Below are positions 48,394-53,395 of a stretch of DNA of 64,000 nucleotides, piece by piece. Every line of letters starts with the position of its first letter. Positions within the stretch are counted from its first letter, which is position 1. The notes beneath the pieces were generated by a model. It had not been told where the DNA came from and did not search any database. It saw only the letters and a list, made by a program, of their open reading frames with translations. Made by a program: the position numbers and the translations under genes. This DNA comes from Nitrospirota bacterium (GTDB lineage Bacteria; Nitrospirota; Nitrospiria; Nitrospirales; Nitrospiraceae), in NCBI GenBank assembly GCA_030645475.1, contig JAUSMA010000020.1, positions 1 to 64,000 of the forward strand, in the 5' to 3' direction.

Positions 48394-49113
48394 TTACGTC
48401 CGATCGAACGGATACGTCTTACAGAACGGTTTCATCGGGCATTTCTCACAGAAGGGATTCCTCGCCGTACAACAGGTCGCCCCGAAATCCATGATCGCCT
48501 GGTTAAAGTCGTACCCTTTCCCTTTCGGAATCAGCGCTTCAGATAATTCCCAGAGCTTCGGCTTCTGCGTTTTGGGGTCGCCCTTCGCAATAAATACCCG
48601 ATGCAGCACCCGAATGACATTCGTATCCAGGATCGGCGCATCTTCGTTGAACGCGAAGGACCGAATGGCGCCTGCCGTGTACCGTCCAATGCCTTTGAAC
48701 GACAGCAACTCCTCCGCATCGCTCGGAAGTTGCCCCCCATAGCGCTCAACCGTCTCGCAAGCGATACTATGCAGCCGTTCAGGCCGAATATTATACCCCA
48801 GCGGATACCACGTCTTCTTCACATCCGAGACCGGTGCGTCAGCCAACTCTTCAAAGCTTGGGTAACGATCCAGAAACTCGTGGTATTTCGGAATCACCCG
48901 ATCGACCTGGGTCTGTTGCAACATCACTTCAGAGACCAGAATGTGATAGGGATCAGAGGTCTTTCGCCAAGGCAGATCGCGGCCATATTTCGCGTACCAC
49001 TTCAGCAGCCTGGCCTGGAACCGGCGCTTGTGCGACGCGTCGAGGCCGAGAGACTTCTTGCGAGCCTTCTTTTTAGGCGGAGCGGTTGTCCGAGAGCGAG
49101 AGCTGGTGGGCAT
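48394..49113 (-). CDS. mutY: A/G-specific adenine glycosylase, short form
   Basis: A 239-residue base-excision enzyme that removes adenine opposite 8-oxoguanine. It has the catalytic glutamate region SDPYHILVSEVMLQQTQV, the helix-hairpin-helix LLSFKGIGRYTAGAIRSFAF, the catalytic aspartate in ILDTNVIRVLHR and a C-x6-C-x2-C-x5-C iron-sulfur site (CTARNPFCEKCPMKPFC). It ends directly after that cluster, so the roughly 120-residue MutT-like C-terminal domain of E. coli MutY is missing. The N-terminus adds a basic stretch (PKKKARKK). An endonuclease III-like relative is a possible alternative. Confidence 0.87.
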   Translation of the reverse strand: MPTSSRSRTTAPPKKKARKKSLGLDASHKRRFQARLLKWYAKYGRDLPWRKTSDPYHILVSEVMLQQTQVDRVIPKYHEFLDRYPSFEELADAPVSDVKKTWYPLGYNIRPERLHSIACETVERYGGQLPSDAEELLSFKGIGRYTAGAIRSFAFNEDAPILDTNVIRVLHRVFIAKGDPKTQKPKLWELSEALIPKGKGYDFNQAIMDFGATCCTARNPFCEKCPMKPFCKTYPFDRT

Positions 49114-49223: not shown

Positions 49224-49781
49224 TTACTTCTCAGGCTGCGCTGGGACCGGCCCCCCAGTAATGGCCAGAACAGTCACGTCAAAGTGCAACGTCTTCCCTG
49301 CCAGCGGATGGTTGAAATCGAGCACGACCGTATCGTCTTTCACTTCCTTCACAATAGGGAATGCCGTCGCCCCGTCACCAGACTGCCCTTGAAGCTGGGT
49401 TCCCACTTTCTGTGCTGCAACCGGGATGAGGTCCTTCTTCACCTCTCGAAGGGCTTGTGGGTCAATCGGTCCGTAGCCATCAGCGGGAGCTACGATGACA
49501 TGTTTGTGTTCCCCTTTTTTCATACCTTCCATGGCAGTTTCTAATCCGGGAACAATCTCATGCGCACCCTGCGTATAGGTCATCGGCTCCTTGCCGATGT
49601 TGGATTCAAGCACGGATTGATCGTCGAGCGTCAACGTGTATTCCAACGAAACGACGGTCCCGGCAGCAACAGTCGTCCCGGCATCAGGCTTGGAAGCCTC
49701 GGCCCAGGCCTGAGAACCCATGATGCCCAAAGAGAACACACACACAGAACAGACGCCTCGTAGGAATGCCAATCGTGCCAT
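49224..49781 (-). CDS. Exported FKBP-type peptidyl-prolyl isomerase, SlyD-like
   Basis: A 185-residue protein with GGAGGA before ATG 49781. The signal peptide (ARLAFLRGVCSVCVFSLGIMG ... AWA) places the mature protein in the periplasm. The FKBP core reads VSLEYTLTLDDQSVLESN, then GAHEIVPGLETAMEGMKKGE. An insert-in-flap domain follows (VAPADGYGPIDPQALREV...), ending with FPIVKEVKDDTVVLDFNHPLAGKTLHFDVTV. That layout is SlyD-type, but the histidine/cysteine-rich metal tail of E. coli SlyD is absent. It probably acts as a periplasmic chaperone-isomerase. Confidence 0.88.
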   Translation of the reverse strand: MARLAFLRGVCSVCVFSLGIMGSQAWAEASKPDAGTTVAAGTVVSLEYTLTLDDQSVLESNIGKEPMTYTQGAHEIVPGLETAMEGMKKGEHKHVIVAPADGYGPIDPQALREVKKDLIPVAAQKVGTQLQGQSGDGATAFPIVKEVKDDTVVLDFNHPLAGKTLHFDVTVLAITGGPVPAQPEK

Positions 49782-49957
49782 CACTCGAATCCTCCATGCG
49801 GTTCGGTTGAGAATAGGAAGAGCCAGAAACTGCCACAGATAGAACGGTCCTGCATGCCGTCCGGCTTCATCAATGATTCGCGACCAGGATTTTTATCATA
49901 GCCCACTCTCGCTTTCCACTCAGCGCCAAGCCTTAACCATCAGAACGCTACATATAT

Positions 49958-50113: not shown

Positions 50114-50440
50114 ATGGTCACAAGAAAACATCCCAGGTTTCCCGTGTCGCTCTCCAGCACCTTAGTGCACCAGAATCACTTCCGCCATACAGGGTCAGTC
50201 CGAGACCTTTCGGCCAAGGGATGCCGCGTGGAGAGTCTGATCAGCCCCTTTACCGGCATGCAGATCGCCATCCAATTACATATTCCAGGCGAACCTCAAC
50301 CGATCCTGATCGACAATGCCACCGTGCGCTGGTCAGGATCCGCCGGCATCGGGGTAGAGTTTCTGACCATAGCCGCCCCACAACAAGACCGCTTGAGCCT
50401 CATGATCAAGCAGCTCCAACCCAAAGCCGGCCTTCAGTAG
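50114..50440 (+). CDS. PilZ-domain protein
   Basis: A 108-residue single-domain protein. RKHPRFPVSLSS is the RxxxR-type c-di-GMP contact. VRDLSAKGCRVES is the [D/N]xSxxG motif. The strands ATVRWSGSAGIGVEFLTI complete the barrel. It is a likely c-di-GMP receptor, similar in plan to the gene at 13808 but with little residue identity outside the motifs. Palindromic element C follows the gene. Confidence 0.87.
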   Translation: MVTRKHPRFPVSLSSTLVHQNHFRHTGSVRDLSAKGCRVESLISPFTGMQIAIQLHIPGEPQPILIDNATVRWSGSAGIGVEFLTIAAPQQDRLSLMIKQLQPKAGLQ

Positions 50441-50512
50441 ATCACCCTCTCCCTAGCAAGATTGTCGATAAACGACCAGGCCACTGCGGGAATGCGCATA
50501 CCAGAAGAGTCG

Positions 50513-50622
50513 CAGGCTGTTCAGAAAGGCCGCAGCAAGCGCAGAGGCTCAACGTACTCTCGGCAGTACGTTGAGCCTCTGCGCACCGCGAGCACGCCGC
50601 TGGCGGCCTTTATCAACAGCCA
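50513..50622. repeat. Palindromic intergenic element, copy C
   Basis: This 110-bp palindrome runs from CAGGCTGTTCAGAAAGGCC to GGCCTTTATCAACAGCC. It has a very long perfect inner stem, GCAGAGGCTCAACGTACT with its complement AGTACGTTGAGCCTCTGC (50541-50582). The arms are diverged from the other copies but are mutually complementary. It lies 72 bases after the PilZ stop and 43 bases before the antitoxin gene. Confidence 0.88.
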
Positions 50623-50665
50623 GCTAGTTGCATTTTAGGCATCAGCCTCCGTATCCTCCGTCTCT

Positions 50666-50869
50666 ATGGACCTTGCCCAACTTTCCCCGACACAACTCAA
50701 AGAACTCGTACGCGGGATTGTCGACGATCGCCTGCGTGAATTGCTGGGCGATCCCGACCTCGGACTCCAGCTGAGCGAGGAGCTGCGTGCCCGCTTGAAA
50801 GAATCCCTCTCCAGCACGGAAAGACTCTCCGGCGAAGACCTCGCGGATCAGCTCGGGCTCCGCTGGTAA
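50666..50869 (+). CDS. Probable antitoxin of a RelE-type pair
   Basis: A 67-residue acidic, mostly helical protein (QLSPTQLKELVRGIVDDRLRELLGDPDLGL). It has an N-terminal helix pair and a C-terminal LSGEDLADQLGLRW. Its size and acidity suit an antitoxin, as does its position seven bases before a RelE/ParE-type toxin. No ribbon-helix-helix or HTH motif is obvious, so DNA binding is uncertain. The call rests mainly on the partner gene. Confidence 0.72.
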   Translation: MDLAQLSPTQLKELVRGIVDDRLRELLGDPDLGLQLSEELRARLKESLSSTERLSGEDLADQLGLRW

Positions 50870-50876
50870 GCACATC

Positions 50877-51140
50877 ATGGCCTGGTACCGACTCGCCTAT
50901 CGACCAGCGGTGCTCCACGATCTGACGAACCTTGATCCGGCCATGGCACAACGGCTCCTGGACAAAACCAAATGGATTGCCTCCAACATCGATAACTTGA
51001 GGCACGAACCGATCACACCGGATCTGCCAGGCCTTTCCAAATATGCGGTCGAGGAATGGCGAATTTATTACTCCATCGATCGGAACGATCACCTGGTCGA
51101 CATTCACCGCATCGTTCGCCAGAGGGAGCTTCGTGCATGA
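50877..51140 (+). CDS. RelE/ParE-superfamily toxin
   Basis: An 87-residue basic protein. It opens WYRLAYRPAVLHDLTNLDPAMAQRLLDKTKWI and ends KYAVEEWRIYYSIDRNDHLVDIHRIVRQREL. This matches the RelE fold: a first strand, two helices, then the strand pair containing 'YRvxYxid' and a final basic strand with an R near the end. Members cleave ribosome-bound mRNA or inhibit gyrase; which applies cannot be read here. It follows the antitoxin by seven bases and overlaps the next gene by four. Confidence 0.82.
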   Translation: MAWYRLAYRPAVLHDLTNLDPAMAQRLLDKTKWIASNIDNLRHEPITPDLPGLSKYAVEEWRIYYSIDRNDHLVDIHRIVRQRELRA

Positions 51141-51451
51141 TTGCCATCACGGTTGCCGCCATCGCAAAGCTGAAATCGATCCAAGTCAACCATCCTGAAG
51201 ATCCAATCGTCCGCGTGTCCGTACGAGACCTGGACGAGTCACGCTTAAGCTTCAATATTACGTTGGAAGCAGCGGCCAAGCCAGATGATGACGTTCAGGA
51301 AGTCGACGGTCTCACGATAGCAGTGGATCGGCGCAGTGCGCCACGGATGGAGGGGGTGACAGTCGACTACACCGAAGCCGGCGGATTTCGATTTCTCCAT
51401 GACGGCGAAGGCCGCAGCCGGCCACTTCTCACGATTCCCACACTGAACTGA
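51137..51451 (+). CDS. Cysteine-less IscA/HesB-like protein
   Basis: A 104-residue protein with the A-type iron-sulfur carrier framework: ITVAAIAKLKSIQ, IVRVSVRDLDESRLSFNITLE, DDDVQEVDGLTIAVDRRSAPRMEGVTVDYTEAGGFRF. The three conserved cysteines that bind iron-sulfur clusters in IscA are all missing; the protein contains no cysteine. It therefore cannot work as a normal carrier and must have a different role. Its ATG overlaps the toxin stop (ATGA), so it is translationally coupled to the toxin-antitoxin pair. Confidence 0.75.
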   Translation: MIAITVAAIAKLKSIQVNHPEDPIVRVSVRDLDESRLSFNITLEAAAKPDDDVQEVDGLTIAVDRRSAPRMEGVTVDYTEAGGFRFLHDGEGRSRPLLTIPTLN

Positions 51452-51517: not shown

Positions 51518-51640
51518 CAGGATGCTCAAACAGGCCTTCCAGCAAGGCCGCAGCGAGTGAAGGACCGAGGCGTACCCTTGTGGTACGTTGAGGGTCTGAA
51601 CGATGCGAGAACGAAGCTGGAGGCCTGTTTCAGCATCCTA
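51518..51640. repeat. Palindromic intergenic element, copy D
   Basis: This 123-bp palindrome begins CAGGATGCTCAAACAGGCC and ends GGCCTGTTTCAGCATCCT. The inner palindrome is GTACCCTTGTGGTAC. Its stem carries AAACAGG paired with CCTGTTT where copy A has AAAAAG paired with CTTTTT, a compensatory change. It lies seven bases after the NUDIX gene's stop, between convergent genes. Confidence 0.92.
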
Positions 51641-51647
51641 AGAGCGG

Positions 51648-52187
51648 CTAGGTGAGTCGATCCGCAAGACTCGCCACATGGACCTGGAACGTGCCCCGCG
51701 TGACGTCATCGACGTAACGGCGGAGAATTTCCTTCACCACAGGAAAGGCGATCTCATCCCAGGGAATGGCGGAGAGCGTGAACAATTGGACTTCAAGACT
51801 TTCTTCACCAACCCCGAATTCAGGTGAAACCATCGGCCCTCGAAAGACCAGATATGCCTGGCCGATGTGCGGGAGACTCAGGACCGCAAAGAGAGCAATC
51901 CGCTCCACCCGAGCCTGTGCTTCTTCGAAGGTCTCCCGAGCGGCTGCCTGTTCGGTGCTTTCGCCGATTTCCATAAAGCCAGCAGGAAAGGTCCAGAGGC
52001 CTGATTTGGGTTCGATCCCGCGCCGGCAGAGAAGGATTTGGTCTTCCCACTCCGGAATACAGCCTGCGACGATTTTCGGATTATGGTAATGAATAGTCTG
52101 GCATGAATCGCACACAAACCGCAGACGATTGTCTCCGGCTGGAATTTTCTTCGTCACAGACGTGCCGCAGGCGCTGCAATAGTTCAT
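51648..52187 (-). CDS. NUDIX hydrolase with N-terminal zinc ribbon
   Basis: A 179-residue protein. It begins MNYCSACGTSV and continues CDSCQTIHYHNPK, a four-cysteine ribbon. The NUDIX domain has FPAGFMEIGESTEQAAARETFEEA (canonical box) and ends in a helical tail. This architecture is close to NudC-like and ADP-ribose/NADH pyrophosphatases, though it is shorter than NudC. The substrate is not certain. It is divergent from the methyltransferase-like gene, with only 29 bases between the two starts. Confidence 0.85.
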   Translation of the reverse strand: MNYCSACGTSVTKKIPAGDNRLRFVCDSCQTIHYHNPKIVAGCIPEWEDQILLCRRGIEPKSGLWTFPAGFMEIGESTEQAAARETFEEAQARVERIALFAVLSLPHIGQAYLVFRGPMVSPEFGVGEESLEVQLFTLSAIPWDEIAFPVVKEILRRYVDDVTRGTFQVHVASLADRLT

Positions 52188-52216: not shown

Positions 52217-53395
52217 ATGGATAGCACAAAACTACGGTTCTTTGCACCCTGCCCGAGTGGGCTGGAGGGCGTCCTCGAACAGGAACTCCACGACCTTGGC
52301 GTGCCGATGACCACAAAGACGGACGGAGGCATCGCATTCCTGGCTCCCTGGGCCACGATGTACTGGGTCAATCTCAAAAGTCACATTGCCAGCCGCGTGC
52401 TCTGGGAAGTCGGACAGGCCCCCTATCTCTCGGAAGACGATGTCTACCGCGCCGCCTATAGTCTTGCCTGGCCAGACTGGTTCACCTCGTCACAAACCAT
52501 CAAGGTAAAAGTGAGTGCGCGCCGTTGTCCACTCACCAGCCTGGACTTCATCACACTACGTATCAAAGACGCCGTCTGCGATAAGTTCATGGCAGTGCGG
52601 CACAAGAGACCGAATGTCGACACCCATAACCCGAACCTCCGGATTGACGCGTTTCTCGATGAGTCCACGGTGACCTTCTATCTGGACACCTCTGGTGACC
52701 CGCTCTTTAAGCGAGGCCATCGAGTGGTGTCCGTCGAGGCCCCGTTGCGAGAAAACCTGGCGGCAGGCTTGCTGCGACTCGCCGGGTGGACGCCCAAGGA
52801 GGTGTTGCTCGACCCCATGTGCGGCGGCGGCACGATCCCACTCGAAGCGGCGATGATGGCACGCCGGATCGCACCGGGGCAGTCGCGGACATTTGCGTTC
52901 GAGCGCTTGATCGTCCACGACCCCAAACGATGGGGCCATCTGCGCGAAGCCTCACGGGTGAAACAACTGGCAGAGGTACCGGCGGCCATCTATGCGTCCG
53001 ACCAGGACCCCGCTGCGGTGAAGATCGCCCAGCGGACCTTTCAGGGGGCAGGAGTCGCGTTCGATATCCGCCTGCGACAAAGCGACGTCCTCGCCCTTGA
53101 GGCACCAGCTGAACAGGGCGTGATCCTGATCAATCCCCCCTATGGAGTCCGACTCAGCCGACCCGAAGAACTTGATGCGTTCTATCCCAAGCTGGGCGAC
53201 TGGCTGAAACAGCGCTTCAATGGATGGCGCGCCTATATCTTTACCGGCGATTTACGAGTCCCGAAGTTAATCGGCCTCGCACCATCGAAACGCATTCCGC
53301 TCTTCAATGGTCCGCTGGAATGCCGTCTTTATGAGTTTCAGATAGTGTCGGGATCGATGCGCAAAACGAGCCCATTACCTGATCATCAGGCATGA
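52217..53395 (+). CDS. THUMP-domain RNA methyltransferase (RlmL/RlmK-N type)
   Basis: A 392-residue class I SAM-dependent methyltransferase. The N-terminal part (FFAPCPSGLEGVLEQELHDLG) and a THUMP region are followed by a Rossmann core with LLDPMCGGGTIPLEAAMMARR and the catalytic loop LINPPYGVRL (NPPY), typical of N2-guanine methylation. E. coli RlmL methylates 23S rRNA G2445, and this protein corresponds to its N-terminal half, like the shorter YpsC-type proteins of other bacteria. It starts at ATG 52217 and is followed by a repeat lipoprotein after 28 bases. Confidence 0.9.
   Translation: MDSTKLRFFAPCPSGLEGVLEQELHDLGVPMTTKTDGGIAFLAPWATMYWVNLKSHIASRVLWEVGQAPYLSEDDVYRAAYSLAWPDWFTSSQTIKVKVSARRCPLTSLDFITLRIKDAVCDKFMAVRHKRPNVDTHNPNLRIDAFLDESTVTFYLDTSGDPLFKRGHRVVSVEAPLRENLAAGLLRLAGWTPKEVLLDPMCGGGTIPLEAAMMARRIAPGQSRTFAFERLIVHDPKRWGHLREASRVKQLAEVPAAIYASDQDPAAVKIAQRTFQGAGVAFDIRLRQSDVLALEAPAEQGVILINPPYGVRLSRPEELDAFYPKLGDWLKQRFNGWRAYIFTGDLRVPKLIGLAPSKRIPLFNGPLECRLYEFQIVSGSMRKTSPLPDHQA

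Follow-up and report, generated by a model that had tools for sequence, protein, structure and literature searches.

Type II toxin-antitoxin pairs of the RelE/ParE superfamily (PF05016) are the closest described relatives of the first two genes considered here. In E. coli RelE, the substitutions R61A, R81A, and Y87A reduce cleavage, and the R81A/Y87F combination nearly abolishes it (PMC2807027), while the ParE branch is toxic without the RNase residues and ParE relatives inhibit gyrase (PMC11980606). In toxin-antitoxin-chaperone (TAC) modules a third, SecB-like gene follows a RelE/HigB-type pair (PMC5105189, PMC11980606). The third gene considered here (gene 3) is compared with the A-type carriers IscA, SufA, ErpA, and HesB (PF01521, TIGR00049) and with DsrR (structure 2k4z), an A-type protein which, in 2010 work as outlined in PMC11406059, does not bind a cluster and was reported to regulate sulfur oxidation.

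Here we describe a locus in a 64,000-nucleotide stretch of DNA from a Nitrospirota bacterium (family Nitrospiraceae; the window) in which a RelE/ParE-type pair is followed by an A-type gene encoding no cysteine. By following each gene through the genus, family, order, and phylum, we arrive at the reading, to which we give a probability of roughly two in three, that two modules with independent inheritance occupy a single operon in some Nitrospiraceae.

Gene layout and conservation within the genus

Features of the locus are summarized in Table 1. The three-gene order and the spacings of seven bases (antitoxin to toxin) and minus four bases (toxin to gene 3, an ATGA overlap) reported in an earlier note on this DNA are borne out by the sequence and its open reading frames. 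That note further took the genes for one translational unit; toxin and gene 3 may plausibly be co-translated in the genus, but ATGA overlaps are frequent among co-directional bacterial genes and one alone is no proof of a functional unit.

Table 1. Features of the window at and around the three-gene locus (positions in the window).
Feature	Position	Strand	Remarks
HhH-GPD glycosylase (MutY/EndoIII type), locus marker	48394..49113	-	PF00730; at the pair's locus in g5, g13, g15, g16
FKBP-type peptidyl-prolyl isomerase	49224..49784	-	PF00254
PilZ-domain gene, upstream, in conserved locus	50114..50440	+	PF07238, 45.6 bits; adjoins the pair in g15, g16
Dispersed palindromic repeat on the upstream side of the cassette	50508..50632	+	fold z -8.4; 48 genome matches
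Antitoxin-like gene (A)	50666..50869	+	67 aa, C-terminus ...RLSGEDLADQLGLRW; first gene of the pair in 26/26 genus copies
RelE/ParE-superfamily toxin-like gene (T)	50877..51140	+	87 aa; PF05016; R61-equivalent kept, R56- and Y87-equivalents lost
Gene 3, cysteine-less A-type (HesB/IscA-fold by profile)	51137..51451	+	104 aa; PF01521; ATGA overlap with toxin
Second dispersed palindrome, related to the first, on the downstream side of gene 3	51518..51642	+	fold z -6.5; 40 genome matches
NUDIX hydrolase, convergent with gene 3	51648..52187	-	PF00293, 54.7 bits; syntenic in other genera
THUMP/RlmL-like rRNA methyltransferase	52217..53395	+	PF01170, PF02926, PF22020; sister-family orthologue directly downstream of gene 3

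In the genus of the window (g1), 26 copies were recovered. All keep the order, the three frames, and spacings of +6/+7 and -4 (counted for L027 from its ATG), and none of the 26 gene-3 proteins contains a cysteine. Median dN/dS values within the genus (antitoxin, 0.11; toxin, 0.15; gene 3, 0.13) indicate purifying selection on all three genes. Since frames, order, spacing, and absence of cysteine are kept in 26 copies at such low dN/dS, the arrangement is not a product of chance. Matches to both gene 3 and the toxin were found in 19 of 19 g1 genomes of at least 90% completeness and at most 5% contamination, and gene 3 is retained wherever the pair is present in this genus.

Two palindromic repeats, related to each other and roughly 120 bases long, bracket the cassette, and each has at least 40 matches in the genome. 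Both fold far better than shuffled sequences and look like dispersed elements of the REP/MITE type, and relatives of them adjoin the cassette in many genus copies. A mobile cassette was considered and rejected, the neighbouring genes and the pair being syntenic across genera.

A toxin-antitoxin pair with an eroded active site

The product of the second gene matches the Pfam family ParE_toxin (PF05016) with 26.0 bits (cutoff 23), and the RelE-like class proposed in the earlier note is thereby upheld at the level of the superfamily. The first gene reached the cutoff of no Pfam or curated antitoxin family, and a PDB sequence search with it returned helical-protein noise only; its putative identity as an antitoxin rests on its position and on its resemblance (E about 1e-17) to the genes that open canonical RelE pairs L206, L207, and L209 of the same order. 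PADLOC gave no meaningful match, and AlphaFold2 models from selected loci had a mean pLDDT of 56 for the toxin and 41 for gene 3.

The pair resembles RelE/ParE type II pairs in that the antitoxin precedes a toxin of 87 aa with the fold signature and the R61-equivalent; unlike them, it is a vertically inherited core pair for which a plasmid search with the toxin found no match, and its active site is altered. When core toxins were compared with eight canonical RelE pairs of the same order (L206-L213), KLRVGDYR-type and HRxxY motifs were present in 8/8 canonical pairs, and the core toxins carried KYAVGDWR or QYAVGDWR in place of the former, with alanine as the R56-equivalent in nearly all copies. 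Within the genus, the tyrosine equivalent to Y87 is lost from 26 of 26 toxins, the R81-equivalent is mostly replaced, and the R61-equivalent is kept; the final R and Y are retained by core toxins of the sister family. The toxins of the genus do not present the full set of catalytic R61, R81, and Y87 equivalents by which a RelE mRNA interferase is recognized. The order harbours both the eroded core pair and canonical RelE pairs with intact motifs (L206-L213).

Judging from these residues, the eroded core toxin has probably lost RNase activity, although residue loss is no proof of lost toxicity because relatives in the ParE branch are toxic without RNase residues. The fold signature and purifying selection have been kept and, since the residues that RelE needs for mRNA cutting have been lost, the protein would most plausibly be a weakened or repurposed regulator that binds the ribosome or nucleic acid rather than a killing toxin.

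An A-type protein without cluster cysteines

Gene 3 matches Fe-S_biosyn (PF01521) across the whole domain with 32.8 bits (cutoff 26.3) and the IscA structure 1x0g with a profile E-value of 1.5e-9; its match to TIGR00049 is below cutoff, and the equivalog cutoffs of IscA, SufA, and ErpA are not reached. An A-type fold is predicted on the basis of these profiles. The earlier description of an A-type framework that has lost all cluster cysteines agrees with the PF01521 match and with a window protein that has none, and extends to the family: cluster cysteines are absent from 75 of 75 intact copies, of which 66 are free of cysteine altogether and nine have a single one, never at a cluster position. 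Two A-type carriers with three cysteines each are encoded in the same genome. In an alignment with these, the GGGC position of gene 3 is occupied by acidic or other residues, the CGC tail is missing, and the loop is shorter; gene 3 differs from A-type carriers generally in lacking both the GGGCSG cysteine and the C-terminal CGC and in having a shortened loop and a different tail. A role as an Fe-S carrier was rejected on the absence of the cysteines.

The loss is common to gene-3 copies linked and unlinked to the pair, so recruitment to a toxin operon does not explain it, and no sequence feature specific to linked copies was found. Residues R26, D31, E44, D51, R70, and H88 are invariant across genera. 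When plasmids were searched with gene 3, the sole matches were two proteins from Rhizobium (33%) that carry the annotation iron-sulfur assembly accessory protein. A weak Bacillota match (L079) contains stops in the translated frame.

Like DsrR, as that protein is portrayed in PMC11406059, gene 3 would encode an A-type protein without cluster binding, and we infer that the two are comparable in kind. Unlike an orthologue, it matches DsrR only weakly (2k4z, E 0.019 versus 1.5e-9 for IscA 1x0g), for which reason orthology was rejected, and no dsr context was seen; the two proteins have likely lost their cysteines independently.

Distribution of the pair and of gene 3

The toxin family occurs in 15 of the 22 genera of the Nitrospiraceae (threshold E 1e-6; in some genera not of the core type) and also in two further families of the order, f2 and f3, where the antitoxin accompanies the toxin at the loci examined. 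Gene 3 is an order-wide family: a family-wide search gave clear relatives in many genera, and a phylum sample placed it in other families of the order and in two other families of the class. All three genes occur together in g1, g5, g6, g7, g9, g13, and g14, with toxin to gene 3 spacings of -7 to +87.

Beyond these genera, the three-gene order that the earlier note had taken for a unit comes apart on both sides, and the finding which that note had itself named as telling against its proposal, a third gene that occurs without the pair, is borne out. In four genera the intact pair occupies this locus and gene 3 is missing from it: the pair lies between the PilZ and NUDIX genes as in the window in g15 and g16 and upstream of the THUMP gene in g20 and g22; it lies elsewhere in g2 and g17. 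Conversely, gene 3 adjoins the THUMP methyltransferase gene without the pair in g2 and g21 and throughout a set of sister-family (f2) loci (L078, L178, L180, L181, L186, L187, and L188; L078 is assigned to f2 by the THUMP tree). It is located away from the THUMP locus in g3, g10, g16, and g20, with varied neighbours among which no partner emerged. In these same sister-family genomes the toxin is located elsewhere, G361 for example having it at 2.43 Mb and gene 3 at 1.88 Mb, far apart; at genus level, the two tend to be jointly present or absent in this family. Gene 3 is broken or truncated in g16 genomes G096, G098, G104, G110, and G139. Decaying copies in several g16 genomes (L115-L119) suggest recent loss in progress. 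Solo g16 copies (L088, L094, L096, L098, L109, L110, and L112-L114) adjoin a divergent PilZ-domain gene, unlike that of the window.

Co-inheritance was assessed in two ways. Among 79 genomes of g16, gene 3 is present in 17 and the toxin in 37; both occur in 6 genomes, gene 3 only in 11, the toxin only in 31, and neither in 31, against 8.0 expected to have both (Fisher p 0.41), a count that includes incomplete genomes and is uncorrected for relatedness. A tree built from the THUMP protein requires no fewer than six changes of state to account for where gene 3 occurs at the locus, and two for the pair, these counts being approximate since the tree is of a single gene, has weak deep branches, and places one g1 row (L070) outside g1; a previous tree that lacked the row of the window had the same outline. 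As the two separate repeatedly and show no association in g16, gene 3 is not co-inherited with the pair in the manner of the third gene of a three-component system.

Evolution of the locus and alternative readings

Under the reading of two modules, the RelE/ParE pair would be among the chromosomal genes that the order inherits vertically, and gene 3 would belong to a Nitrospirota A-type family that, its cluster-binding cysteines having been replaced, should carry no Fe-S clusters. Its scaffold would most likely serve to bind either a protein or some ligand other than a cluster, perhaps with a DsrR-like regulatory role; the protein may act as a ligand sensor or regulator without involvement of the toxin. 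Because gene 3 stands beside the THUMP gene in the sister family, this is likely the older arrangement, to which the pair would have been joined at the THUMP-side site in the Nitrospiraceae, with gene 3 later leaving or decaying repeatedly.

Given that all three genes are retained together in seven genera, a lineage-specific link between toxin and gene 3 is possible. It could take the form of an older, independent gene 3 that acquired a functional tie to the pair solely where the overlap is tight (g1, g5, and parts of g14). The two genes overlap or nearly touch in g1, g5, and most g14 loci, and no loss of gene 3 was seen in these three genera among near-complete genomes. Vertical inheritance of the locus explains the same pattern, however, as the MutY, PilZ, NUDIX, and THUMP genes are kept too, and linked copies of gene 3 bear no distinguishing feature; we regard such a tie as conceivable but improbable.

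A true three-component toxin-antitoxin system, with gene 3 as adaptor, chaperone, or sensor as suggested in the earlier note, would resemble TAC modules and would fit the strict order and overlap in 26/26 genus copies, the joint purifying selection, and the precedent of SecB-like third components (PMC5105189, PMC11980606). Gene 3 resembles the latter in following a RelE/HigB-type pair, but it is not SecB-like, and each part occurs repeatedly without the other at the same locus. The absence of association in g16 and the widening of the spacing to +23 in g13, +34 in g6, and +87 in g7 argue further against a part for gene 3 in the toxin system, and we consider this account unlikely.

In a related scenario, which we find doubtful, the pair would have been domesticated as a core regulator of the Nitrospirales, the eroded toxin being a non-lethal binder of ribosome or DNA, and gene 3 recruited in some genera as its ligand-sensing third subunit. 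The lost cysteines and the g16 pseudogenes might suggest that gene 3 is a carrier that has degenerated and no longer functions, but this is highly improbable in view of its dN/dS within the genus, its six invariant residues, and the conservation of the family through the class.

Conclusions

Tight spacing and genus-wide conservation can give the impression of a three-component toxin system that wider sampling dismantles. That an order comprising nitrifiers and their relatives keeps, in its core genome, a toxin-antitoxin-derived pair with an eroded toxin active site bears on the domestication of such pairs, and a conserved A-type family that should be unable to bind clusters in the known way would be a second case, beside DsrR, of reuse of this scaffold.
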